Assembly (NCBI RefSeq): GCF_030284385.1
Contig: NZ_CP127221.1
Coordinates: forward strand, 1,860,001-1,924,000
Length of the DNA: 64,000 bases
Reading direction: 5' to 3'
Origin: Altererythrobacter rubellus
GTDB taxonomy: Bacteria > Pseudomonadota > Alphaproteobacteria > Sphingomonadales > Sphingomonadaceae
The notes under the pieces were generated by a model that saw only the letters and a list, made by a program, of their open reading frames with translations, was not told where the DNA came from and made no database searches. The translations under genes were made by a program, and so were the position numbers. Shown one piece after another: positions 21,456-60,943 of the stretch. The first letter of the stretch is position 1. Each line of letters starts with the position of its first letter.

Positions 21456-21490
21456 AATGGTAGCGGAGGTCCGCTGCACGCGTTACCCCC
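21456..21490. repeat. 35-bp direct repeat, left copy (attachment-site-like)
   Basis: Identical over 35 bp to 27292-27326. Its first 14 bp equal the complement of the tRNA-Met 3' end at 33714-33727, and the remaining 21 bp are not in the tRNA. It contains the dyad AGCGGA-GG-TCCGCT at 21462-21475. To its left the sequence has no resemblance to the AT-rich element ends, as expected of the original chromosomal flank. Confidence 0.85.
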
Positions 21491-21576
21491 GCGATGAAGC
21501 CTCGAACGATGTTTGCCTTAGATTAGCGAGGCAAATTGCAGAACTAGGTAGATTCAGTGCACGAAAGTCCGTTTAG
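21457..21576 (+). CDS. 39-codon ORF at the left end of element 1
   Basis: Starts at an ATG inside the attachment-site repeat and encodes 39 residues beginning MVAEVRCTRYP. The counterpart at 27293-27412 has exactly the same length. After the 11 residues encoded by the identical repeat, the two share N, R, L, I, L, R and K at matching positions, mostly with different synonymous codons, plus D/E, V/I and Q/K pairs. That pattern suggests selection on a protein. No known family was recognised. The only possible ribosome binding site is a weak GGGA. In this frame the reading also stays open upstream to 21337, but that part is chromosomal flank. Confidence 0.4.
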   Translation: MVAEVRCTRYPRDEASNDVCLRLARQIAELGRFSARKSV

Positions 21577-21586
21577 TTACAACGCT

Positions 21587-22075
21587 TTAGTTGTGCTGAG
21601 CGAAAGCCTCGGTGGCTCCATCGTGCCCAATCGCAAAGACTGTGTAAGGTTGCGTCTGGCCACCAGCCTCCATCCCAGGGGAACCCAAAGGCATTCCAGG
21701 AACGCTGAGGCCTGCAATATCAGGTCGTTCATCTAGCAGACGCTTTATGTCCTCTGCCGGGATGTGACCTTCCAATGCATAGCCATCGACCTCACCTGTG
21801 TGACAGGAGCGCATATTATCCGGCACGCCAAGACGGCTGGCGATAGGTGTGGTGTTTTCGACATCAATAGCACTCACCTCAAAACCGTTCTCGCGCAAAT
21901 GATCTATCCAAGCGTTACAACACCCACATGTCGGTGTTTTATGAACTGTAATTAGCGGCAGAGCGGACACTTCCTCAACCGCGATATTTTCAGCATTTTG
22001 GGGTTCTTCTTCCGAGCAGGCAGCCAAGCCTAGCGGCACTGAAAAAAGAAAAATTGTAAGTAGTAAGCGTATCAT
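21587..22075 (-). CDS. DUF411 metal-binding lipoprotein
   Basis: A 162-residue exported protein. The N-terminus is a lipoprotein signal (LLLTIFLFSVPLGLAAC). The DUF411 domain follows: TVHKTPTCGCCNAWIDHLRENGF with its CxCC cluster, then SRLGVPDNMRSCHTGEVDGYALEGHIPAEDI, and the exit PGMPLGSPGME. DUF411 proteins recur in copper and silver clusters and are thought to bind metal through these cysteines. It lies three bases after the copB stop and is probably the last gene of a copA-copB-DUF411 transcript. The C-terminal HDGATEAFAQHN tail is not recognised. Confidence 0.88.
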   Translation of the reverse strand: MIRLLLTIFLFSVPLGLAACSEEEPQNAENIAVEEVSALPLITVHKTPTCGCCNAWIDHLRENGFEVSAIDVENTTPIASRLGVPDNMRSCHTGEVDGYALEGHIPAEDIKRLLDERPDIAGLSVPGMPLGSPGMEAGGQTQPYTVFAIGHDGATEAFAQHN

Positions 22076-22078
22076 GAT

Positions 22079-23188
22079 TTAGAACCAAAACTTCACACCT
22101 GCAACGAATACGGTGCGATCCGGGTCTCCCCCTTCCGTTTGTGTTATATTACGTGTTTCACCAAGGTCGGTTTGATATTCGACGCCGATGTAAGGCGCGA
22201 ATTCAGGCACAAATTCGTATCTCAATCGAAGTCCCGCATCGAGGCTGGTAAGCCCGCTTCCGATATCAAGTTCGGGGATGTCCTGAGCTGACATATTCAG
22301 CTCAACGCGCGGTTGCAAAATCAGCTGTTGCGTAATGCGCTGGTCGTATTCAGCCTCTGCCCGTGCGGTAAAATCACCCTCATCAGAGACAAAGCCTGCA
22401 ACATCGACCTCGAAAAGATAGGGGGCTAATCCCTGCACACCCAACACGAGGTGTGAGGTGTCAGGTTCAGATGGGCGATAATCATATCGCACGCCTGTTT
22501 GAAAATCGAACCAAGGGCTGATGGCACGGCTCCATAAAGCTTGCACCTCAGCATCATCAAGGGACTCTTCAAATTCGCCCTCGCCTTCGGTTTTAATCCA
22601 AAGTTTGTTGAGATCGCCGCCAACCCATGCGTTGGCTTCCCAAACGTAAGCATCTGCACCTTCACCCGATTGCAGTTCCAATCGGTCGATGCTGATGAGC
22701 GAGTTGATCGCACCGCCTTGTTCGCGGCGAAGCTGTTCACGCGATGCTGCCATCTCAGAGTCAGAGAAAATGGTATCGGCGGCATGCTCAGGGCCGGAAA
22801 AAGCCTCAGGAGGCGGGCCTGATTGTGGAAGAGACATCGCGTCCATACCACCCATATCATGTCCTGCATGCGGGTCCGCATCGTCGCTGCCTTGCTCTTG
22901 CATGTCACTCATATCGTGACCGGCATGGGGGTCGGGTTCGGTTGTGTCCTGGCCTTGCATAATTCCCATGTCATGGCCCGCGTGAGGATCGGTTGCCGCG
23001 TCTGAACTCTCAGACATATCGCCCATGTCGTGACCTTCATGCGGATTAGACATGTCATGGCCTGCGCGAGGGTCTTCTATCTGTGCGTCTTGAGCAGGTG
23101 CTTCCATCCTATGTGCGCTATGGTGCATCTGCTGTGCAGCGACAGGAATTGGAAGAGCTAGTGCGGCAATAATAAGGGCTGTTCTCAT
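22079..23188 (-). CDS. copB: Copper resistance protein B (outer-membrane PcoB/CopB)
   Basis: Outer-membrane beta-barrel protein of the copABCD/pco system, thought to bind or move copper across the outer membrane. It is 369 residues with a signal peptide (MRTALIIAALALPIPVAAQ). A histidine/methionine-rich region of about 110 residues contains several HAGHDM-type repeats. The barrel domain contains DRLELQSGEGADAYVWEANA and ends in the outer-membrane signature phenylalanine (VAGVKFWF). Its start overlaps the copA stop by four bases. The number of HAGHDM repeats is high for the family and may vary between strains. Confidence 0.92.
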   Translation of the reverse strand: MRTALIIAALALPIPVAAQQMHHSAHRMEAPAQDAQIEDPRAGHDMSNPHEGHDMGDMSESSDAATDPHAGHDMGIMQGQDTTEPDPHAGHDMSDMQEQGSDDADPHAGHDMGGMDAMSLPQSGPPPEAFSGPEHAADTIFSDSEMAASREQLRREQGGAINSLISIDRLELQSGEGADAYVWEANAWVGGDLNKLWIKTEGEGEFEESLDDAEVQALWSRAISPWFDFQTGVRYDYRPSEPDTSHLVLGVQGLAPYLFEVDVAGFVSDEGDFTARAEAEYDQRITQQLILQPRVELNMSAQDIPELDIGSGLTSLDAGLRLRYEFVPEFAPYIGVEYQTDLGETRNITQTEGGDPDRTVFVAGVKFWF

Positions 23189-24948
23189 GTCGGTTCACCT
23201 TCCATCGGGCGAACCTTCACAACGTTGAACATGCCTGCGTGCATGTGCATCAAAAGGTGGCAGTGAAACGCCCAGTCTCCTGGTGCATCGGCAGTGAGGT
23301 CGAACTTCACATAGCCTCCGGGAAGGACATTGACGGTGTGCTTCCTCGGCTGGTGCCCGTCCTGCCCATTGACGATCTCAAAGAAATGTCCGTGCAGGTG
23401 AATCGGGTGCGTCATCATCGTATTATTCACGAGTTTGACGCGCACCCGCTCGTCGCGTGCAAAACGGATTGGCTCTACGATTTCGGCAAAGCGTCGTCCG
23501 TCGAGGGACCACATATAACGCTCCATATTCCCTGTCAGATGGATGACTAGCTCGCGGCTCGGACTGCGTGGATCGGGGTTAGGATTAAGCGAACGAAGTT
23601 GCGTGTAAGTCAAAACACGGTGCGGGACGTTTTCGAGGCCGAGGCCGCGATCACCTGTTCGGTCGGCAGGGTTAGGGGCAATCATATCAACACCCGGATT
23701 GACGTCGATTCCAGGAGCGTTTTCAGGGTCACGCATGCTCATGTCCCCATGATCCATGCTGCCGTGGTCCATGCCGGAGTGATCTTCACCATCGCCCATA
23801 CTGGCCATGCCGCCCATGCCCATGTCGCGCATGGTGAGCGTTGGACGTTCCCTGAGAGCTGGCACGGGAGCTTCCATACCGAGGCGCGGTGCTAGCGTTG
23901 CACGGCCTAGTCCTGAACGATCAATGCTTTCTGCGACGAAGCTGTAAGCCCGATCCTCGCGCGGTGTGACCACCACGTCATAGGTTTCGGCAACACCGAT
24001 TTGGAATTCGTCTGTCTCAACAGGCTGGACGTTTTCTCCGTCAGCATTGACCACAGTCATCGAAAGGCCAGGAATTCGCACATTAAATATGCTCATGGCA
24101 GAGGCGTTGATGATACGTAGGCGAACGCGCTCACCCGGCTCGAACAGCCCTGTCCAATTCTCGTTCGGACCGTGACCATTGATAAGGTAGGTGTAGGTTG
24201 CGCCCGTCACATCGGCGATATCTGAGGGCATCATGCGCATGCCTGCCCAGCGAATGCGCTCTTCTATATCCTGACCTTCACCTGCCAGAAGGCCTGCTAG
24301 GGTTTGCTGCTGGCGGTTGAAATAGTCGGGCGATTGCTTGAGCGTTCGCATGATCTCATGCGGGTGCATGAAGCTCCAGTCCGAGAGCACAATAATGTGT
24401 TCGCGGTCATATTGAATGGGGTCAGTACCTGCGGGATCAACAACAATCGGACCGTAATGCCCCATCGCTTCCTGCAAGCCCGAATGGCTGTGATACCAAT
24501 ATGTCCCCGACTGAATAATCGGGAATTCATAAACGAATGTCTCATGCGGCTTAATGCCCGGGAAGCTAACGCCCGGAACGCCGTCCATCTGGAAAGGCAA
24601 AAGAAGGCCGTGCCAGTGGATAGATGTATCTTCTTCAAGATGATTGGTGACAGCCAATCTAACATTTTGCCCTTCGCGCAGGCGAATGAGCGGTGCGGGA
24701 AGTGAACCATTGACGGTCACAGCATGTCCGGTGCGGTTACCAATCGAAAAGGACGAGTTGGCAATTGATAGCGCGATGTCCTCGCCTGACAGCGTGGCAC
24801 CATTCTTCGTCGCAGGCGCGTGGGCCAAACCTTTTGGAGAAGCCCAGGCGGGCATCATTGAGTGGAGGGCAAACATGCCGCCAACGGCTAGTGAGCCCTT
24901 GAGAAGGTTTCTTCGCGACTGGTCGATGGGGGCAGGTTTACGCTTCAT
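23185..24948 (-). CDS. copA: Copper resistance multicopper oxidase CopA
   Basis: Periplasmic multicopper oxidase that oxidises Cu(I) and sequesters copper. It is 587 residues. Residues 10-40 hold a twin-arginine signal (QSRRNLLKGSLAVGGMF). All four copper-binding clusters are visible: HWHGLLLPFQ, YWYHSHSG, HPIHLHGHFFE, and HCHLLMHMHAGM. A Met/His-rich loop near residues 375-400 (GMGGMASMGDG, then MDHGSMDHGDM) is typical of CopA/PcoA copper storage segments. It starts two bases after the CsoR-type gene, suggesting a csoR-copA-copB-DUF411 operon. Confidence 0.95.
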   Translation of the reverse strand: MKRKPAPIDQSRRNLLKGSLAVGGMFALHSMMPAWASPKGLAHAPATKNGATLSGEDIALSIANSSFSIGNRTGHAVTVNGSLPAPLIRLREGQNVRLAVTNHLEEDTSIHWHGLLLPFQMDGVPGVSFPGIKPHETFVYEFPIIQSGTYWYHSHSGLQEAMGHYGPIVVDPAGTDPIQYDREHIIVLSDWSFMHPHEIMRTLKQSPDYFNRQQQTLAGLLAGEGQDIEERIRWAGMRMMPSDIADVTGATYTYLINGHGPNENWTGLFEPGERVRLRIINASAMSIFNVRIPGLSMTVVNADGENVQPVETDEFQIGVAETYDVVVTPREDRAYSFVAESIDRSGLGRATLAPRLGMEAPVPALRERPTLTMRDMGMGGMASMGDGEDHSGMDHGSMDHGDMSMRDPENAPGIDVNPGVDMIAPNPADRTGDRGLGLENVPHRVLTYTQLRSLNPNPDPRSPSRELVIHLTGNMERYMWSLDGRRFAEIVEPIRFARDERVRVKLVNNTMMTHPIHLHGHFFEIVNGQDGHQPRKHTVNVLPGGYVKFDLTADAPGDWAFHCHLLMHMHAGMFNVVKVRPMEGEPT

Positions 24949-24950
24949 AC

Positions 24951-25223
24951 TTACCTGCCCATCTTTCCAAAGAGTTCGACGAGTTCCGTAAACTTTTCGC
25001 GCTGAGCCTCGCGGTCGCCGCTTTCAATCGCTTCGTTCACACAGCATCCTGCATGAATCGAAAGCACCTTCTGTCTCGTTGACTTCAGAGCCGCTTCCAT
25101 TGCCTGCATCTGTTGCAGGATGTCGATGCAATAGCGTCCTTCCTCCATCATTTTGGAGATGCCGCGTGCCTGTCCTTCAATCCGCTTCATGCGGGCGATT
25201 TCTTTTTGGAACTTCTCGCTCAT
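24951..25223 (-). CDS. csoR: CsoR/RcnR-family metal-sensing repressor
   Basis: A 90-residue all-helical DNA-binding repressor that releases DNA on binding metal. The ATG at 25223 (MSEKFQKEIARMKRIEGQARG) is preferred over the TTG seven codons upstream. The metal site Cys-His-Cys is visible: cysteine in RYCIDIL, then histidine and cysteines in LSIHAGCCV. This is the CsoR Cu(I) pattern rather than the RcnR His-Cys-His-His pattern. Its position next to CopA and a CsoR-like operator supports copper sensing, with probable autoregulation. Confidence 0.88.
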   Translation of the reverse strand: MSEKFQKEIARMKRIEGQARGISKMMEEGRYCIDILQQMQAMEAALKSTRQKVLSIHAGCCVNEAIESGDREAQREKFTELVELFGKMGR

Positions 25224-25254
25224 CGTCTCGTATGTCCTCGGCAAGGTTGCAAAA

Positions 25255-25273
25255 TATACCCTAGGGGAGTATG
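25255..25273. promoter_or_regulatory. CsoR-type operator in the divergent promoter
   Basis: The sequence ATACCC-TA-GGGGAGTAT is a G/C-tract inverted repeat flanked by A/T, the form expected of CsoR operators. It lies 31 bp upstream of the csoR start and 46 bp upstream of the DUF2231 start, so one bound repressor could control both directions. The match to the operator class is by pattern; binding is inferred. Confidence 0.65.
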
Positions 25274-25319
25274 GTATAGCAATTAGATAGATCGATCAAT
25301 GACGACGACAAGGGACCGC

Positions 25320-25949
25320 ATGCACAAAAATTTATTTAAACCGCGCTTGGCGGTTTTTGGCGTGTTGCTTGTCATTGTCGCTCTGGTCTTTTCGGTTGGG
25401 TCGCCTGTGACAGCACATGAGGCTCACCGACAGGATCAAACCGAGCAGGAAATTGCGACAGAAAGCTCCGCACCGAAGGTTGATCAAGATCCAGCAATCG
25501 TTGTCGACGAAAGTGCATTTGATGTTGCCGATTTTCTGGGTCGCCTTCACCCGGCAGCCGTTCACTTCCCGATTGCTCTTCTTTTTTTCGCTGCCATTGC
25601 CGAACTTGCGCTTCTCATTCGACCAACTCTTGGACTGGAGAGGACGGTTGGCTTTTTGGTATGGTCGGGTGCGTTGACCGGAATAGGGGCGGTTATCCTC
25701 GGATGGTTTGCAGGCGGTTTCCGTTTGACCGACCGATCCGAAACACTGTTCTGGCATCGCTGGAACGGAACGGCGCTTGTCGCAATTGCACTGATTGCTG
25801 CGCTCATTCACGCACGAAAATGGAACCGCAACCTGTTCCGCCTGTTAGTGTTTTCAGTTGCTATTGCATTGATAGTTCAGGGTTATTTGGGTGGCGAGCT
25901 CGCCTTGGGCCCTGACCACCTTAACTTAAATCCGAAAGGGGGCTCTTAA
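25320..25949 (+). CDS. DUF2231 membrane protein
   Basis: A 209-residue membrane protein. The ATG at 25320 has AGGGA four bases upstream; the ATG at 25299 has no visible ribosome binding site. Seen: a first hydrophobic segment (LAVFGVLLVIVALVFSV), a hydrophilic loop with one HEAH, then the DUF2231 core of four helices starting LGRLHPAAVHFPIALLFFAA and including FWHRWNGTALVAIALIAALI. DUF2231 proteins carry conserved histidines in the membrane and are of unknown function. It is first of a three-gene run with DUF305 and glutaredoxin-MauE, driven away from csoR. Confidence 0.82.
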   Translation: MHKNLFKPRLAVFGVLLVIVALVFSVGSPVTAHEAHRQDQTEQEIATESSAPKVDQDPAIVVDESAFDVADFLGRLHPAAVHFPIALLFFAAIAELALLIRPTLGLERTVGFLVWSGALTGIGAVILGWFAGGFRLTDRSETLFWHRWNGTALVAIALIAALIHARKWNRNLFRLLVFSVAIALIVQGYLGGELALGPDHLNLNPKGGS

Positions 25950-26459
25950 ATGAGTTACGGAAGATTTGCGGCCATGATCCTGGCCTCTACAGTCATCATG
26001 TATGGCTTGATGTATTTGAACACTTACGAACTAGGCCACGTGTTTTTCAGTGAGACGCGCGCCTGGATGGCGCTCTACATGGGCGCGATGATGGCAATCA
26101 TCATGCTCGCCTTCATGCTGGGCATGTATAAGAAAACGAAAGTCAACATTGCAATCTTTGTGGGCGCAGCGGTTGTGTTCGCAGGATCGCTTTTCCTTGT
26201 GCGAAGTCAGAACACGATTGCTGATGAGGCGTGGATGAGCGCGATGATCCCGCATCACTCGATTGCCATTCTCACCAGTGAGCGCGCCAATATCGAAGAT
26301 CAGCGCGTGCGCGAATTGGCAGACGAAATCATTAAGGCGCAACGCCGCGAAATCGATGAGATGAAGTGGTTACTTGATGACATCGAGACGAACGGGCGCG
26401 CGACCACGGAAGCTGAGGCCGAGGCTCGGCCTGTGCCTGAATTTGAAGGTGAACTGTAA
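25950..26459 (+). CDS. DUF305 protein with N-terminal membrane anchor
   Basis: A 169-residue protein with two or three N-terminal hydrophobic segments (about residues 5-25, 35-55 and 60-82), then the DUF305 four-helix domain. The family motif is clear in AWMSAMIPHHSIAILTSERA, followed by RELADEIIKAQRREIDEMKW. DUF305 proteins commonly accompany copper and silver genes, and the HH plus Met/Glu residues may bind metal. It starts directly after the DUF2231 stop with AAAGGGGG upstream, so the two are translated from one message. The function is not established. Confidence 0.88.
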   Translation: MSYGRFAAMILASTVIMYGLMYLNTYELGHVFFSETRAWMALYMGAMMAIIMLAFMLGMYKKTKVNIAIFVGAAVVFAGSLFLVRSQNTIADEAWMSAMIPHHSIAILTSERANIEDQRVRELADEIIKAQRREIDEMKWLLDDIETNGRATTEAEAEARPVPEFEGEL

Positions 26460-26476
26460 GCGGGAGGGTAGTGGAC

Positions 26477-27223
26477 ATGGCACAGACCAAAACAGCAAAG
26501 CTCTATCGGATGGTCATGGAAAAGCATGTCTGCCCCTACGGCCTTAAATCAAAACACCTGCTCAAAAAGCAGGGATTTGAGGTCGAGGATCACCACTTGA
26601 CTACGCGCGAAGAAACCGACGCCTTCAAGGAAAAGCATGGGGTTAAGACCACTCCGCAAACTTTCATCGATGGCAAGCGTATCGGTGGTTATGACGATTT
26701 GCGTGCGCATTTTGGAGAAGAGCCAAAGGGCGAAGACGAGACGACCTATCGCCCTGTTATCGCGCTATTTGCGATGACTTTCCTGATGGCGCTAATGGCA
26801 GCCTTCGTTGCCGAAGGTGAGTGGATAACGCTGCGCACCTTCGAGTGGTTTATCGCATTCTCCATGTGCGGACTTGCCTATCTCAAGCTGCGCGATGTCG
26901 AGAGCTTTTCGACCATGTTTCTCAATTACGACCTGCTGGCAAAGAAGTGGGTGCCCTATGGCTACGTCTATCCCTATGGCGAAGGCTTGGCAGGATTACT
27001 GATGATTGGCGGAATTTTGCCATTCATCTCGATTCCGGTCGCGCTTTTCATCGGAACGGTAGGAGCGGTCTCGGTCTTCAAGGCTGTTTACATCGACAAG
27101 CGCGAACTCAAATGCGCCTGTGTCGGCGGGGATAGCAATGTGCCCCTTGGCTTTATATCGCTCACTGAGAATTTAATGATGATGGGCATGGCTATTTGGA
27201 TGATCGTGAAAATGAACCTGTAG
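26477..27223 (+). CDS. Glutaredoxin fused to a MauE/DoxX-type membrane domain
   Basis: A 248-residue two-domain protein from the ATG at 26477 (a GTG two codons upstream is less likely). Residues 1-80 are a glutaredoxin with CPYGLKSK as active site, TTPQTFIDGKRIGGYDDL for glutathione contact, and a single usable CPYG pair lacking the second cysteine. Residues 95-248 form about four helices of the MauE type, with YDLLAKKWVPYGYVYPYGEG and the CACVGGDSNVPLG segment that would sit in a loop. It probably moves reducing or oxidising equivalents across the membrane for metal-related thiols. It is last of the operon with DUF2231 and DUF305. Confidence 0.82.
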   Translation: MAQTKTAKLYRMVMEKHVCPYGLKSKHLLKKQGFEVEDHHLTTREETDAFKEKHGVKTTPQTFIDGKRIGGYDDLRAHFGEEPKGEDETTYRPVIALFAMTFLMALMAAFVAEGEWITLRTFEWFIAFSMCGLAYLKLRDVESFSTMFLNYDLLAKKWVPYGYVYPYGEGLAGLLMIGGILPFISIPVALFIGTVGAVSVFKAVYIDKRELKCACVGGDSNVPLGFISLTENLMMMGMAIWMIVKMNL

Positions 27224-27291
27224 AAATGCGTTCATTGACAGATGTTGACAACCAGTCAAATTCGTCTTAAGCTATTGATATTAAACAAAAA

Positions 27292-27326
27292 AATGGTAGC
27301 GGAGGTCCGCTGCACGCGTTACCCCC
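27292..27326. repeat. 35-bp direct repeat, middle copy (attachment-site-like)
   Basis: Identical to 21456-21490 and marking the join of the two elements. On its left is the AT-rich right end of element 1 and on its right the left end of element 2. The dyad AGCGGA-GG-TCCGCT is at 27298-27311. The first 14 bp equal the tRNA-Met 3' end (33714-33727) in the same orientation, so all three sites are direct repeats. Confidence 0.85.
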
Positions 27327-27412
27327 AGTATAATGAGGACAATGAGATAGTTGAACGACTTTCCAATAAAATCAGAGCTTTAGCTAGAACATACTTGCAT
27401 AAAGCTGCCTGA
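27293..27412 (+). CDS. 39-codon ORF at the left end of element 2
   Basis: Counterpart of the ORF at 21457-21576: same start inside the repeat, same length, 39 residues (MVAEVRCTRYP, then an acidic stretch, RLSNKIRALART and KAA). The divergent part uses AT-rich codons such as TTA and AGA, unlike neighbouring core genes. Its first 11 codons are constrained as part of the attachment site, but the later synonymous changes at shared residues argue for translation. No ribosome binding site is seen upstream (an A-run). Function unknown. It ends 28 bp before the czcA stop codon on the other strand. Confidence 0.4.
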   Translation: MVAEVRCTRYPQYNEDNEIVERLSNKIRALARTYLHKAA

Positions 27413-27440
27413 AAACGTCAAATACCTACCGCAAAATATC

Positions 27441-30400
27441 CTAATGATAGTCTTGGCAATGATTGGCCTCGGTTTGATTACTATCTCTACGCTTAAGAAC
27501 AAGTCGCGAAATTGCGGGGAGCACGAATAGGGTGAGCGCGGTTGCGGTTATCAATCCGCCGATTACAACGGTCGCAAGAGGGCGTTGAACTTCGGCGCCA
27601 GTGCCAGTGGCAATGGCCATCGGCACAAACCCCATCGAGGCGACCAGTGCCGTCATTAAAACGGGGCGGAATCTTGCCAGTGCGCCTTCGACGATTGCCT
27701 TGTCCAAAGGCATACCACTCTCCAGTCTTTGGCGTATCGCAGTCATCATCACGAGGCCGTTCAAAACGGCCACGCCTGATAATGCGATGAAACCAACCGC
27801 AGCGGAGATCGAGAAAGGGATGTCGCGCAGCCAGAGCGAGAACACGCCTCCGGCAAGAGCCATCGGGATCGCACTAAACACTGCAAGTGTGGAAAGCCAA
27901 CTTCCCAAAGCCATATAGAGCAGGAGAAGAATTAGGAAAAAGCATAGCGGAACGATGAGGCTTAGCCTGCTTTTGGCAGCTTGCAGGTTTTCAAACTGAC
28001 CGCCCCATTCGATATACGCACCTTCCGGCAAGGAAACCGTCTCACTCACTGCCGCCTGGGCTTCTTCGACATAGCTGCCGAGATCGCGCTCGCGCACATT
28101 GGCGGACACGATGACAAGGCGACTGCCTTGTTCACGCCTGACTTCCGCCAATCCGTCGCTCACCTCGAAGCTCGCCAGTTCCCGCAAAGGCAATGTTGCG
28201 CCGTTCGGCGTCTTAACCGGCAATGCTCCTAAACGATCAAAGTCACTTCTCAGAGTTTCAGGCAAGCGCACGACAATATCGAAACGCTTGTCGCCCTGAA
28301 AAACCGGACCTGCGGGACGACCCCCAACGGCAATAGCGACAAGTTCGGCTACCTCTTCAACGCTTAAGCCGTAGCGCCCGATAGCAGTACGGTCGAAACG
28401 GACATCAAGTGTCGGAAAGCCGGTGGTCTGCTGCACTTTTACGTCTGCCGCCCCGTCAATTCCCCGAAGTACGTTTGCCACTTCATTAGCTGATGCCGAT
28501 AACACTTCGATATTGTCGCCATAGAGTTTGACGGCGATGTCACCGCGCACACCTGCAATCAGTTCATTGAAACGCAGCTCAATTGGCTGGCTGAACTCAT
28601 AGAGGTTCCCGATCAAGCCGTTCAGCTCACTCTCCATATTTGCGACAAGAGCGTCCTTGCTAAGTGAGGGGTCTGGCCATTCGTCCCTAGGGTTGAGAAG
28701 AACGTAAGCATCGGAGATATTTGGCGGCATCGGATCGCTTGCTACCTCGGCTGTGCCCGTTCTGGAAAAAGCGGTCGCCACTTCCGGAAACTCGACTAAA
28801 GTCCGCTCGACCTGCCTTTGCATTGCCACCGACTGCTCAAGCGAGGTCGAGGGAATACGCAAACTCTGCACGGCCAAGTCGCCCTCATCGAGCTGCGGCG
28901 TAAACTCACTCCCCAAAGTCGTGAAGAGAAGCGCAGCAACGGCAAAGAGTGCGGCACCGCCGCCGATCACCGGCCAGGGTCGTGCGATGGCTTTGACAAG
29001 TAGCGGTTCGTAACGCTCCTTCGAGGCGCGGATGACCCGTACTTCCTTTTCCGAGATACGCCCTTTGAGAAGCACTGCGATCATCGCAGGTACGAAAGTC
29101 AGCGACAGAACAAAGGCAGAGGCCAGTGCGAGCAGCATCGTGATTGCCATAGGCGAGAAGGTTTTGCCCTCAACGCCTGTGAAGGTCAGAAGTGGTGCAA
29201 AGACGAGCAGGATGATGGCCTGACCGTAGACGGTCGGTTTAATCATTTCTTGTGCGGCAAGGCGGGTTTCTGCGAGCCTCTCGCCAAGGGACAGCAAGCG
29301 CCCCTCTTGATGTTGACGCGCGGCCAACCTTGCCACCGAATTCTCAACGATGATGACTGCACCGTCCACAATCAGTCCGAAGTCGAGTGCGCCCAGGCTC
29401 ATCAGATTCCCTGAAACACCCAAGCGGTTCATGCCGATGGCGGCCATCAGCATGGAAAGCGGGATGACTAGGGCTGTAATGAGTGCTGCGCGGATGTTTC
29501 CCAACAGCAGAAATAAGATGACGATGACAAGAAGCGCGCCTTCGACGAGGTTTTTTTCGACTGTTGCGATCGTCGCATCCACGAGGGTTGAGCGATTGTA
29601 GATGATCTCGCCGACAACACCGTCGGGCAAGACCGATCTCACCTCCTCAAAGCGTTCCGCAGCCCCGGCTGCTACAGTCCGGCTGTTCTCCCCGCTTCTC
29701 ATTAAAACGGTGCCGATGACGGCTTCCTCGCCGTTGTAACTGCCTGCCCCTGTGCGCAGATCACCGCCAAGGCTTACCTCGGCCACGTCGGCTACTCGCA
29801 CAGGCACGCTACCCCGATTGGCAACGATGGCCTGCGCGATGTCTTCCACCGAACCCACCCGCGCATCGACGCGCACGAGCAAGGCCTCTCCGTCGCGGTT
29901 GAAGAAGTTTGCGCCCACCGCAAGATTGGCGCGCTCGATTGCATCGACAAGTTCGTTAAATGCGATGTCATAGCCGTTCATGCGGGTTGGATCGGGCTGC
30001 ACCAGAAACTGCTTTTCATAGCCACCAATCGAATCCACGCCTGCCACGCCGGGAGACGCGCGCATGAGCGGTGCGATTACCCAGTCCTGCAAACTGCGTA
30101 GGTAAGCTGCCTGCGCGACCTCATCGGCAAGTCGTTCACCTTCGGTGGTGACAAAACTGCCGTCAGCCTGCCAACCTGTTGCACCGCTAGATGCACCACC
30201 TTCCTCGCGCTCGGCAAAGCCGATGCGATACATGAGAACTTCTCCAAGCCCTGTTGAGATTGGCCCCATGACGGGCTGTGCGCCTTCGGGAAGGTCGGAG
30301 GCTATCGCGGTCAAGCGTTCATTGACCTGTTGGCGGGCGAAATAGATGTCGGTGCCTTCGTCGAAGATGGCCGTGACTTGCGAAAAGCCGTTGCGTGAAA

Positions 30401-30677
30401 TTGAGCGGGTCATGTCTAACCCCTCAATCCCCGCAAGCCCTGTTTCGACCGGATAGGTGATTTGCTGTTCGACCTGTGCAGGCGAGAGCGCCGGCACGAC
30501 CGTATTGATCTGCACCTGCGTATTGGTGATGTCGGGAACGGCATCAATTGGCAGTTTGAAGAGATTGAACGCTCCCCAAGCCGCGACAAGAACGGTCAGG
30601 ACTATCACCGGCAGACGGAAGCGGACAGCGTAATCGAGGATGCTCCCGATAAAGCCGTGCTGTGTATCAGTGGCCAT
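27441..30677 (-). CDS. czcA: Heavy-metal RND efflux pump, inner-membrane subunit CzcA
   Basis: Proton-driven trimeric pump of the HME-RND family that exports divalent metal through CzcB and CzcC. It is 1078 residues from the ATG at 30677, overlapping czcB by 11 bases; an upstream ATG-type start at 30698 lies inside czcB. Twelve membrane helices and two large periplasmic loops are apparent. Helix 4 carries DFGLIVDGAVIIVEN, an exact match to the HME1 signature DFG-x3-DGA-x3-VEN associated with Zn, Co and Cd, not the AIG-x3-DAA-x3-IEN form of Cu/Ag pumps. The C-terminus ends in a histidine after an acidic/asparagine stretch. Confidence 0.93.
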   Translation of the reverse strand: MATDTQHGFIGSILDYAVRFRLPVIVLTVLVAAWGAFNLFKLPIDAVPDITNTQVQINTVVPALSPAQVEQQITYPVETGLAGIEGLDMTRSISRNGFSQVTAIFDEGTDIYFARQQVNERLTAIASDLPEGAQPVMGPISTGLGEVLMYRIGFAEREEGGASSGATGWQADGSFVTTEGERLADEVAQAAYLRSLQDWVIAPLMRASPGVAGVDSIGGYEKQFLVQPDPTRMNGYDIAFNELVDAIERANLAVGANFFNRDGEALLVRVDARVGSVEDIAQAIVANRGSVPVRVADVAEVSLGGDLRTGAGSYNGEEAVIGTVLMRSGENSRTVAAGAAERFEEVRSVLPDGVVGEIIYNRSTLVDATIATVEKNLVEGALLVIVILFLLLGNIRAALITALVIPLSMLMAAIGMNRLGVSGNLMSLGALDFGLIVDGAVIIVENSVARLAARQHQEGRLLSLGERLAETRLAAQEMIKPTVYGQAIILLVFAPLLTFTGVEGKTFSPMAITMLLALASAFVLSLTFVPAMIAVLLKGRISEKEVRVIRASKERYEPLLVKAIARPWPVIGGGAALFAVAALLFTTLGSEFTPQLDEGDLAVQSLRIPSTSLEQSVAMQRQVERTLVEFPEVATAFSRTGTAEVASDPMPPNISDAYVLLNPRDEWPDPSLSKDALVANMESELNGLIGNLYEFSQPIELRFNELIAGVRGDIAVKLYGDNIEVLSASANEVANVLRGIDGAADVKVQQTTGFPTLDVRFDRTAIGRYGLSVEEVAELVAIAVGGRPAGPVFQGDKRFDIVVRLPETLRSDFDRLGALPVKTPNGATLPLRELASFEVSDGLAEVRREQGSRLVIVSANVRERDLGSYVEEAQAAVSETVSLPEGAYIEWGGQFENLQAAKSRLSLIVPLCFFLILLLLYMALGSWLSTLAVFSAIPMALAGGVFSLWLRDIPFSISAAVGFIALSGVAVLNGLVMMTAIRQRLESGMPLDKAIVEGALARFRPVLMTALVASMGFVPMAIATGTGAEVQRPLATVVIGGLITATALTLFVLPAISRLVLKRRDSNQTEANHCQDYH

Positions 30678-31812
30678 GTTCTGCCTCCGATTTTCCAAGC
30701 TCGGCCTTTAGCAAAAAGGCGTTTTCCGAAGCGATGACGGCTCCTGCTTCAAGCCCCGAAATGATCGTAATCATCCCTGCCGAACGCGCGCCTGTTTGAA
30801 CCTCGACGGGCTCGAACGCATCACCCTCGCGCACGAAAACGACCGACCTACCTTCAACCGTCTGGACAGCAACTTCCGGCACCGAAATCACGTTCGGATC
30901 AGAATCCGATGTGCTCTCAATTCTCACCTCCACAAAGGCGTCAGCTTGGAGTGCAGCCACCAGTCTATCGGGAATGATGATCGCCGTAGCTGCCCTGCTA
31001 GAAGGATCAAGAGCAGGTGTCATCGAGCGGATGCGTCCGCCGATGTCCTGCGAACCAATCACAATGGTCACACCGTCGCCACTGGAAACGCGCGAGACAT
31101 CACCGAGTGGTATCGCCGCCTCGATCTGAACCCGTGCTGGGTCAACGACCTCCATCAACTCTGTTCCTGCCGTGACAAAAGCCCCGAGCACAGCGGGTGC
31201 ATCTGTAATCCGGCCTACGATGGGACTTGTAATCGCAATTGAGCCGCCACCGCTCACTCCGGCGGCGGTAGCTGTATTGCGCGCTCGTTGAAGGTCGGCT
31301 CTAGCCACGGAAAGCTGGGTTTGGGCTGCCTCCAAATCCTGACGCGCGGTCACATTTGCATTGAAGAGGCGCTGCTCGCGCTCAAAATTGGCTTGCGCCT
31401 CTATGAGACGAGCTTGGGCTGCTGCAATATCGGATGAATATTGTGCGGCCTGCGCGCTCTCAATAACCGCCACGGTTTCGCCGCGAGCGACAGTATCGCC
31501 AAGTGTCTTGGTGATACGGACAATCGTGCCATCGGCACGCGCGTCAAGCCGTGCCGCCCCGCTCGGATTGGCCTTTACCGTTCCCGGAACGATGATCTGT
31601 GCATTGCCGCCTAATGTGACGGTATGAAGTTCAATCCCGGACGCAGCCATCTGCTCGTCGGTAATCAACAGCCGTTCTTCATCATCGTGTTCGGCGAATT
31701 CCTCCGCATGACCATGTTCTTCGTCGGCAAAGGAACTCGGAAGTGAAAACCATATGATCGCTGCTGCAATCAACAGGACCGAAAGGATAGTGAGGAGTCT
31801 TTGCCTGGTCAT
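30667..31812 (-). CDS. czcB: Periplasmic adaptor subunit CzcB
   Basis: Membrane-fusion protein that links CzcA to the outer-membrane channel and may bind metal. It is 381 residues. An N-terminal signal/anchor (LLTILSVLLIAAAIIWFSL) is followed by a His/Asp/Glu-rich stretch (EEHGHAEEFAEHDDEER), then the lipoyl half-motifs, a long coiled coil (AAQARLIEAQANFEREQRLF), and a beta-barrel with RSAGMITIISGLEAG. It ends EAEHGH. The start overlaps the czcC stop by four bases, so the czcCBA genes are translationally coupled. Confidence 0.92.
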   Translation of the reverse strand: MTRQRLLTILSVLLIAAAIIWFSLPSSFADEEHGHAEEFAEHDDEERLLITDEQMAASGIELHTVTLGGNAQIIVPGTVKANPSGAARLDARADGTIVRITKTLGDTVARGETVAVIESAQAAQYSSDIAAAQARLIEAQANFEREQRLFNANVTARQDLEAAQTQLSVARADLQRARNTATAAGVSGGGSIAITSPIVGRITDAPAVLGAFVTAGTELMEVVDPARVQIEAAIPLGDVSRVSSGDGVTIVIGSQDIGGRIRSMTPALDPSSRAATAIIIPDRLVAALQADAFVEVRIESTSDSDPNVISVPEVAVQTVEGRSVVFVREGDAFEPVEVQTGARSAGMITIISGLEAGAVIASENAFLLKAELGKSEAEHGH

Positions 31813-33053
31813 GACTCACCTCCTTGTCGCTGGGTGAGCTGCATGAGCGTGGCGGTAGCTTGTGCCAGGTCCGTCCTTGCAGAGATCAAGTCGGCAAGTG
31901 CTGCGTCCCTGACCGACGCCGCATCAAGGACATCAATGAGCGTGAATCTGCCGTAGCGATAACCGATTTGCGCGAGTTCAAGCGTTTCTTCCGCACGGGG
32001 CAGAATAACCCTGGACAGTCTCTCAACGCGCATCTCGGCGGCACTGATGGTGGTCAAAAGCGTGGTGCACTCGCGCTGCAATTGGAGCCTCAAAAGCAAC
32101 AAGCGGCCTTCGGTTGCTCGGGCGCTCGCTTCTGCTGCTTCGATGCCTCCTTGATTGCGGTTGCGCAAAGGGATCGCCATCGACGCGCCGATAGTAAAAG
32201 CGGTGTCGCCGGTTTCCTCAAAACGGCGGATGCCCGCACCAACATTGAGATCAGGAATAGCTGCACGTCTCTCACGCACAATTCCGGCCTCGGCAGCATT
32301 GAGCTCAGCTTCTGCACGCGCCAAAGTGAGCGTGCCCGCAATATCGCCCGTGCCTGAAACTGTATCAGGCGTAAGCCAGAATGTTTCGATGGTTTCGGGT
32401 GGTGTGCTTGCCCCCCAAAGCTCGGCAAGATTTGTTCTCGCATTAAGATATTCGGCCTCGGTGGCACGAAGGTCTGTCTCGGCCTCTGCCATTGCAGCCT
32501 CTGCCCGAATGGCACGAAGGGGTGGCTCGCGTCCTGCCTCGACCAGTTCACTCGCGATGCGGTAAAGTTCTGCCGAGCGCTCATAAATACTCTGCTGCAA
32601 AGCGACATTTTCTTTGGCTGCTACGGCTTGGGTAAAACGCTGCCGCACGGCAAGTACGAGATCAGCGCGCGATATAAGCGCGTCAAGTTCGGCAACGCTC
32701 GATTGTGCCTGTGCTGCGAGCACCCTTGCACTCCGTTTACCGCCAAGCTCGATTGGCTGGGTCAACATCAGGGTGGTTTCATTCGAGCGCAGTCCCGAGA
32801 AAGTACCGCTGCCAGCGATGTTCTCGACCTCGAGCGAGACTTCGGGGTTCGGGCCATAGCCTGCTTGCCGCTCATTGCCTCGGGCAATATCGACTTCGGC
32901 CTCTGCTATGCTTGCAACAGGAGATTTTGCTCCCGCTAATTGCAAGGCTTCATCCAGGCTCAAGCCCTGCTGTTGGGCCGAAACTGTAATGGGTATGAGC
33001 GCAAGCACAATTGCTGCGTATATCGGGCGCAAAAGCGCCAAGTTTGGTGACAT
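31809..33053 (-). CDS. czcC: Outer-membrane channel subunit CzcC
   Basis: TolC-like outer-membrane factor completing the CzcCBA efflux pump. It is 414 residues from the ATG at 33053, which is preceded by AGAGGA at a good distance. The longer frame to 33116 runs into the czcI-like gene region and lacks support. A signal peptide (ALLRPIYAAIVLALIPITVSA) is followed by two repeats of long coiled-coil helices, including LDEALQLAGAKSPVA, GYGPNPEVSLEVENIAGSG and the second-half LAQIGYRYGRFTLIDVLDA. It overlaps czcB by four bases. Confidence 0.9.
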   Translation of the reverse strand: MSPNLALLRPIYAAIVLALIPITVSAQQQGLSLDEALQLAGAKSPVASIAEAEVDIARGNERQAGYGPNPEVSLEVENIAGSGTFSGLRSNETTLMLTQPIELGGKRSARVLAAQAQSSVAELDALISRADLVLAVRQRFTQAVAAKENVALQQSIYERSAELYRIASELVEAGREPPLRAIRAEAAMAEAETDLRATEAEYLNARTNLAELWGASTPPETIETFWLTPDTVSGTGDIAGTLTLARAEAELNAAEAGIVRERRAAIPDLNVGAGIRRFEETGDTAFTIGASMAIPLRNRNQGGIEAAEASARATEGRLLLLRLQLQRECTTLLTTISAAEMRVERLSRVILPRAEETLELAQIGYRYGRFTLIDVLDAASVRDAALADLISARTDLAQATATLMQLTQRQGGES

Positions 33054-33117
33054 GGAAAGTCCTCTGGTCTGGTTTGTGTTGGGGGGGGACCGCGAACACG
33101 CGGTCAGGGAACACAAA

Positions 33118-33483
33118 TCAGATGCGTGGAGGACGCTTCAGTTTTGAGAGATTTGCCTCGGGCAAGGCATTATCGCGCCTGGGACCCAGCAGTGACGCCG
33201 CTAGGCTAAGGCCTTCTGCCGAAGCAACAGGTGCCACGATCTGCGCCAGATGATGACAATGCCCGTGCGCGCAAACAGCATGTTTGTCGCCTGTGTCGCC
33301 GTCCTCATCGGAATGGCTTTCATCGGCCAAATCAGATGATATGTGGGAGATTTCCGGTTGCACTTCGCCTTCACAAGCGGCTGCCTCTGCGACCGTCGAG
33401 AATGCGAACATGGCAAGCAACAGCACGGCGATGACACGCATCGCAGCACTTTGAAACCTTGCCTGATGTGTTCGAGCATTCAT
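33118..33483 (-). CDS. Small His-rich periplasmic protein, CzcI-like
   Basis: About 121 residues from the ATG at 33483; another possible start is at 33441. A signal peptide (MRVIAVLLLAMFAFSTVAEA) precedes an acidic, histidine-rich stretch with HSDEDGDTGDKHAVCAHGHCHH, split here for length as DESHSDEDGD and HAVCAHGHCHH. It lies directly upstream of czcC in the same direction, the position of czcI in known czc operons. CzcI proteins are small periplasmic metal-binding proteins thought to tune induction. Sequence similarity could not be tested, so the assignment rests on context and composition. Confidence 0.6.
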   Translation of the reverse strand: MNARTHQARFQSAAMRVIAVLLLAMFAFSTVAEAAACEGEVQPEISHISSDLADESHSDEDGDTGDKHAVCAHGHCHHLAQIVAPVASAEGLSLAASLLGPRRDNALPEANLSKLKRPPRI

Positions 33484-33713
33484 GGTGCGAGTATCTGCCA
33501 AATCTATTTCACGGTCAACAAAAGAAGTAATAATCTTTCGCAGGAAAGATATAACATTAACTTTCGGAAGTTTGAATTTGACGACACTTGAGCAGCAAAA
33601 TCTTCAATTAACAAACTAGTGTCTAAGAAAGATTTATCTCGCTAGCTGAATCAAATCTCATGCCAAAATGCGTGTGGAAGATATTGAGCTAAGTAATTGA
33701 TTTAAAACAATAA

Positions 33714-33727
33714 AATGGTAGCGGAGG
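33714..33727. repeat. Attachment core shared with the two 35-bp repeats, inside tRNA-Met
   Basis: The 14 bp AATGGTAGCGGAGG cover the CCA end and part of the acceptor stem of tRNA-Met and occur as the first 14 bp of both 35-bp repeats. Only the left arm of the repeat dyad (AGCGGA) is present here; the right arm is absent. This is the expected appearance of a reconstituted tRNA end after integration. Confidence 0.75.
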
Positions 33728-33792
33728 AGGGACTCGAACCCCCGACACGTGGATTATGATTCCACTGCTCTAACCACCTGAGCTACTCCGCC
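33716..33792 (-). tRNA. tRNA-Met (anticodon CAU)
   Basis: Folds as a 77-nt cloverleaf on the minus strand with CCA encoded. The acceptor stem is GGCGGAG/CTCCGCT (one G-U), the D arm GCTC/GAGC, and the anticodon stem GTGGA/TCCAC around loop ATCATAA. The T arm is GGGGG-TTCGAGT-CCCTC. The ATCATAA loop and overall sequence suggest elongator Met rather than the lysidine-modified Ile2, though the anticodon alone cannot separate them. Its 3' end is the target of the adjacent elements and has been kept intact. Confidence 0.93.
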
Positions 33793-60221: not shown

Positions 60222-60943
60222 TACGCAATCTCCAGCGCCATGCGTCGAAGGCGGACTTCGGCTTGAAAGTCTGCCAGCAATGCGCGCATCCGCGCCAGCA
60301 CCACGCCGCCAAATAACAACGAGAAGCCCACCACTGCGAACGCCAAAGGCACAAGAAACGTGGGATCAATCGCGCTTTTCCCGATGGAAATGCTCGCAGG
60401 TTGATGCAGCGAGTTCCACCACACGACCGAGCGATTGATAATCGGAATATTGATCGCGCCGACAAGCCCGAAGATCGCGGCAATTCTCGGCGACACGCCC
60501 TCGCGCGCGACGGCTTGCGAAAGCGCGATATAGCCGAAGTAGAGAAACAGCAGCACTAGCATACTGGTAAGCCGACCATCCCATTCCCACCACGTACCCC
60601 ATGTTGGGCGCCCCCATATCGAGCCGGTGGCCAAACAAATCGCCGTGAAGACCATTCCCGGGACAGCCGCAGCGCGCGCTGAAATCGCGGCCAGTGGATG
60701 CTTCCAGACCAGATAGACAAGGCTGCTAATTGCAATGGCCGTCCAACCACCCATCCCGAGCCAGGCGCTCGGCACGTGGATGAATAGAATGCGCACCGTT
60801 TCGCCCATCAAGCGGTCAGGCGGGACATAGTACAAGCCCCAAACCAGGCTGATTGCCACCATGACCAACCCGCTCAGCAGCAAAAGCGGGGTTAGCCAGG
60901 CTGCTAGCTTGAGAAAACGGGTCGGATTGGCAAAGCCGTGCAT
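60221..60943 (-). CDS. ccmC: Haem exporter permease CcmC
   Basis: Membrane protein that loads haem onto CcmE. It is 240 residues with six helices. The WWD haem-binding motif is visible in GRPTWGTWWEWDGRLTSML, with flanking histidines in IHVPSAWLGMGGW and WNSLHQPASISIG. It is the first gene of the operon; no ccmA or ccmB precedes it, and leucine dehydrogenase lies 81 bp upstream on the same strand. Confidence 0.96.
   Translation of the reverse strand: MHGFANPTRFLKLAAWLTPLLLLSGLVMVAISLVWGLYYVPPDRLMGETVRILFIHVPSAWLGMGGWTAIAISSLVYLVWKHPLAAISARAAAVPGMVFTAICLATGSIWGRPTWGTWWEWDGRLTSMLVLLFLYFGYIALSQAVAREGVSPRIAAIFGLVGAINIPIINRSVVWWNSLHQPASISIGKSAIDPTFLVPLAFAVVGFSLLFGGVVLARMRALLADFQAEVRLRRMALEIA

Follow-up and report, generated by a model that had tools for sequence, protein, structure and literature searches.

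Islands that hold cargo only are common at tRNA genes, and their movement is largely unexplained. Small cargo islands at tRNA genes of marine bacteria, as are the two units described here (cassettes A and B), include the tycheposons, which typically carry a tyrosine recombinase, whereas A and B do not. Tycheposons (PMC10872708, PMC11389934) are among the closest known systems to A and B. The ssrA genomic islands of Dehalococcoides, 15 of which have no integration module, resemble A and B in that they stand in tandem, are bounded by short repeats of an RNA-gene end with conserved bases beside the repeat, in several cases contain cargo only, and have a reading frame (dsiB) that overlaps attL (PMC3146451). 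However, what overlaps attL in those islands is a serine integrase gene, by its variable 3' end, whereas a complete frame with a constant length of 39 codons starts in the core of A and B; the target of A and B is tRNA-Met, and no island of their array has an integrase. CIMEs and the tandem accretion of ICEs and IMEs (named in PMC5704250 and PMC3146451) are like A and B in being att-flanked and devoid of integrase and transfer genes. CIMEs are presumed to be decayed ICEs that move with a neighbour, however, whereas no ICE remnant was found in A or B and no autonomous neighbour accompanies them. Integron gene cassettes and CALINs also change their order and need an integrase in trans (PMC11389934), but in A and B the site is a tRNA end and the cassettes are 6-kb operons. 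An integron-like attC folding of the 35-bp repeat described below was rejected, as the repeat folds no better than shuffled sequences do (fold z-scores of -0.4 and -1.1). In short, A and B belong with the integrase-less, att-flanked tRNA islands and fit the loosely defined group of cis-mobilizable elements. A narrow literature search found no complete short frame that begins in an att core and keeps the same length.

The window (the whole stretch of 64,000 nucleotides that was analysed) comes from the complete 2.3-Mb genome of Altererythrobacter rubellus. In this region, the 3' end of a tRNA-Met gene is occupied by two elements in tandem, A with copper genes and B with genes of CusA/CzcA-type efflux. 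The 12-bp core, TGGTAGCGGAGG, is the complement of the tRNA-Met terminus, CCTCCGCTACCA, and exists in three copies in the complete genome (at tRNA-Met, 21458 and 27294); direct repeats of the tRNA 3' end are thereby present at both boundaries of the units. The features are as follows.

21457-27291, no strand: cassette A, copper genes, without a recombinase (from order and identity in the second genome, and from contents)
21456-21490, plus strand: first copy of the 35-bp repeat, forming the left attachment site of cassette A; the 12-bp core, which matches the tRNA-Met 3' end exactly, spans 21458-21469
21457-21576, plus strand: 39-codon frame A, MVAEVRCTRYPRDEASNDVCLRLARQIAELGRFSARKSV; ATG at 21457, stop TAG at 21574-21576
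21587-25244, minus strand: cargo of A, namely a DUF411 protein (21587-22075), CopB (22079-23188), CopA multicopper oxidase (23185-24948) and a CsoR/RicR-like repressor (24951-25244)
25299-27223, plus strand: cargo of A, namely DUF2231 (25299-25949), DUF305 (25950-26459) and a glutaredoxin-MauE protein (26471-27223)
27268-27291, plus strand: motif at the right end of A, TAAGCTATTGATATTAAACAAAAA; with the core included, its similarity to the right end of B is 87%
27293-33715, no strand: cassette B, metal efflux, without a recombinase (from order and identity in the second genome, allele comparison and contents)
27292-27326, plus strand: second copy of the 35-bp repeat, forming the left attachment site of cassette B
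27293-27412, plus strand: 39-codon frame B, MVAEVRCTRYPQYNEDNEIVERLSNKIRALARTYLHKAA; ATG at 27293, stop TGA at 27410-27412
27298-27311, minus strand: terminator-like hairpin from core and left motif, with its T run from the right end of A
27441-33501, minus strand: cargo of B, namely a CusA/CzcA RND pump (27441-30698), an adaptor (30667-31812), an outer-membrane channel (31809-33116) and a small protein (33118-33501)
33690-33715, plus strand: right-end motif of B
33716-33792, minus strand: tRNA-Met (CAT), the target gene; core at 33716-33727

The two 35-bp direct repeats (21456-21490 and 27292-27326) are identical, and the left ends of A and B accordingly have 21 further bases in common beyond the core. 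The motif common to the right ends begins with TAAG, contains ATTGAT and stands directly before the core. The terminator-like minus-strand hairpin is formed by the repeat together with the A tract of the preceding right end; it follows the cargo of B and gives another reason for the conservation of part of the left motif.

The explanation that we favour, with restrained confidence, is that A and B are non-autonomous tRNA-Met cassettes moved in trans, and that their left end also encodes an element-serving protein of 39 residues, conserved as protein in its last 28 codons. Each cassette consists of a metal-resistance block and a shared attachment site, the latter made up of a right motif of about 25 bp, a core of 12-14 bp identical to the tRNA-Met end and a left motif of 21 bp. 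A site-specific recombinase provided in trans would have inserted the cassettes one by one at tRNA-Met. The start and the first 11 codons of the putative protein would be imposed by the recombination site, and the last 28 codons, a predicted amphipathic helix, would be conserved as protein. Because the two cassettes have no frame in common outside the cargo except this one of 39 codons, the putative peptide most likely serves the element (as a recombination accessory, a regulator or in maintenance). If real, the mini-gene does not belong to the cargo but accompanies the attachment site, and it offers a way to learn what the cassettes need from a helper.

Each repeat opens, by its own ATG, a frame of exactly 39 codons, and the start codon lies inside the recombination site, as the preliminary description had it: the repeats are the attachment sites of the two elements, with the ATG in the core. 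The first 11 codons of both frames belong to the repeat; their DNA being identical, they are uninformative on the protein. In codons 12-39, seven of the 28 residues are common to A and B (N17, R22, L23, I27, L30, R32 and K37). Six of these residues use different codons, as was put forward earlier, and R32 is AGA in both.

The in-register BLOSUM62 score of the two tails is 27, against a mean of -18.7 (sd 10.6) for shuffles, of which 42 in 500,000 reached that value; random pairs of open 28-codon stretches from the window reach it at a rate of 3.5e-5, and the remaining eight frame pairs of A and B all score below 0. This simple shuffle test overstated the case, however, because DNA-related, non-coding left ends score high too: other left ends at the core, with 37-42 of 84 nucleotides identical and in-frame stops, sometimes reach 27-34. 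It was replaced by a test at equal nucleotide identity, in which unconstrained DNA divergence was simulated to 33 identical nucleotides of 84, the number in A and B. By this simulation, the p-value of a score of 27 is 0.0004, rising to 0.0013 when the frames have to be open, and none of the 152 pairs of left ends with 30-36 identities reached the score. Identity of the tails at codon positions 1, 2 and 3 is 12/28, 14/28 and 7/28, respectively (26/56 at the first two positions versus 7/28 at the third, p 0.047), and p by composition is about 0.02 for both frames being open and about 0.03 for their equal length. By these comparisons conservation as protein is likely to account for the similarity of the tails better than conservation as DNA, and the mini-gene is probably real, two independent peptides being the basis of this view. 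The selection on protein claimed in the preliminary description would thus hold for the part past the repeat and not for the part inside it, where the third positions are identical too and the sequence is constrained as DNA.

Rather unlikely, though the most serious alternative, is that the constraint on the left ends acts on DNA alone, through recombinase arm sites and the minus-strand terminator hairpin, with the 39-codon frame as a by-product of distant DNA homology. The identity of the repeat even at third positions, the presence of the terminator-like hairpin and the ability of non-coding left ends to match the score in the same frame are as this alternative predicts, and so is the comparison of the B alleles of the two genomes of the species, in which a single difference in the first 141 bp stands against 15 in the next 150 bp and the conserved stretch extends 21 bp beyond the stop. 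Past the repeat, however, local nucleotide similarity of A and B is not above that of shuffles (p 0.36), the score has the low probability given above at the observed nucleotide identity, and open frames of equal length demand further coincidence. The sole change in the first 141 bp of the B alleles is D16G, which is nonsynonymous, and synonymous changes number zero; because divergence along B is patchy, recombination could explain the conserved left end of B. The within-species evidence on the frame is neutral.

Evidence for movement comes from a second genome of the same species, Altererythrobacter sp. XM-24bin4 (QCWG01000001; G398/G400), which is a MAG. There the order of the cassettes is swapped, B preceding A, and every junction is at the core. 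Identity between this genome and the window is 99.6% in the left flank, 99.93% in A, 99.7% on the tRNA side and 92.4% in B, the alleles of which differ by 7.6% across 6.4 kb. The swapped order, together with the identity of B, indicates that A and B were inserted separately, i.e., that the units move singly, and the contrast of B with the near-identical A and flanks indicates different sources for the two copies of B. The units would thus be able to move as such. Since two units change order and allele between two genomes of one species, the question of movement can be put to the test on a known site of about 60 bp. An empty site was not found across the genus, and in the nearest relative the left flank was found only beside other genes. 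Divergence between the B alleles (27441-33715 in the window) is itself patchy, with 1 to 33 differences in each 150 bp, which suggests a mosaic ancestry of the efflux operon.

We consider it improbable that the swapped order is an artefact of assembly, or arose by homologous recombination at the repeats, and not by site-specific movement. The second genome is indeed a MAG, and identical repeats can mislead an assembler, but the distance between the B alleles indicates a history of B separate from that of A and the flanks, every junction is located at the core, and 35 bp is short for homologous recombination.

For site-specific movement in trans, the reading that we prefer, a recombinase has to be sought outside the cassettes. 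Inspection of contents and a whole-genome integrase scan found no integrase or conjugation genes inside A or B, and no integrase gene lies near any copy of the core in either genome of the species. In the complete genome, four recombinases were identified, three of them tyrosine recombinases (two of the Xer type by score and size, and an orphan) and the fourth a serine recombinase, a kind not found in the second genome; none of the four is near a core copy. The orphan, of 314 aa, is located between polysaccharide genes and fabI (L112:6654-7598, i.e., G000:C1, about 469650-470600), and in the second genome (G398:C1:568579, C7 and C9) it has an orthologue (91.5%) and two paralogues (60-69%) on small contigs. 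Its matches to Xer-type models are far below the cut-offs and it does not match the integron integrase model; given its neighbours and the absence of a core copy nearby, this gene (G000:C1:469677) was not assigned as the helper. We infer that the recombinase acting in trans is the integrase of a helper element that is now absent. A more speculative idea, to which we give little credence, is that of a minimal mobility tag: an att site with its own 39-residue helper peptide would suffice to make an operon a tRNA-Met cassette, the peptide would recruit or steer an integrase supplied in trans by a helper, and only an intact core would provide the start codon of the peptide.

Relatives of the peptide were found neither in Pfam, PHROGs, NCBIfam, PDB, plasmids, phages and IMG/VR nor in the sampled genomes (398 of the family, 398 of the order and 385 of the class). 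The tblastn search proposed earlier likewise yielded no homologue, its matches in Rhodococcus, Roseomonas, Halomarina and two phages having E-values of about 1 or worse; with the tails only 25% identical, a further member that lacks the repeat might have escaped detection. A match in G156 (E 9e-6) was set aside as chance, being antisense to an apparent glycosidase gene (as judged by eye) and without an att core. The IMG/VR matches to ATGGTAGCGGAGGTCCGC (L049, L050) and to the right-end pattern (L143) were also rejected, as they are without cassette context and approximately as numerous as expected by chance.

The structure model of the peptide consists of a coil and then one helix (residues 15-38; mean pLDDT 72), and the last 28 codons are predicted to form one amphipathic helix. 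Neither a sigma-70-like promoter match nor a Shine-Dalgarno sequence was seen upstream of either ATG, and Rfam and promoter scans gave nothing for the frame. The notion of a promoter that changes with the integration state is not supported, and every junction seen supplies the ATG. It is very doubtful that the peptide acts as a recombination directionality (excision) factor, encoded from the att site and working with an integrase provided in trans: it adjoins att in both cassettes, is their sole common non-cargo frame and has a basic, helical tail, but this factor, first suggested in the preliminary description, would have only 39 residues and one predicted helix in place of a winged-helix fold, matches no family, RDF (Xis) or other, in PHROGs, Pfam or NCBIfam, is not encoded next to an integrase, and has none to assist in either cassette.

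The refuting condition named in the preliminary description was applied to other left ends at the core, about 60 in number and drawn from 100 genomes of the genus, which were read in the same frame. No peptide-like frame was found among them, their frames ranging from 5 to more than 90 codons, but they belong to other element families and are without the 35-bp repeat. Further copies of that repeat exist only in the second genome of the species, where the 39-codon frame is kept. The left ends of G433 and G447, with TCCG or TGCG after the core, were rejected as members, since their frames of 21 and 17 codons are unlike the peptide.

Other groups of elements were observed at the same core. Six copies of the tRNA-Met core, all on one strand, delimit units of about 1.4 to 19 kb in one genome (L080-L081; G181:C1:2921500-2961000); four left ends there have about 46-49 bp of tRNA sequence, in most cases followed by a motif like GGTAGACGCGTCTACGTAGACG, and this array has the appearance of another cassette family at tRNA-Met, larger than the first. 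A GGTAGACGCGTCTACGTAGACG-like motif is also present at tRNA-Met in L061/L099, L093 and L095. Another family of left ends (L051, L063, L068, L082:11106, L083, L084, L090 and L097:1253) has a TATAA-TGATTT stretch and then, about 75 bp in, doubled TACCCCCA boxes (TACCCCCATCGATACCCCC), which are possibly integrase arm sites. Finally, the tRNA-Met gene of another species has an element of 25 kb (L082-L083; G224:C6, between cores at 60605 and 85738) with copper genes that are 65-75% identical to parts of A, so that copper cargo must have arrived at the tRNA-Met site repeatedly.
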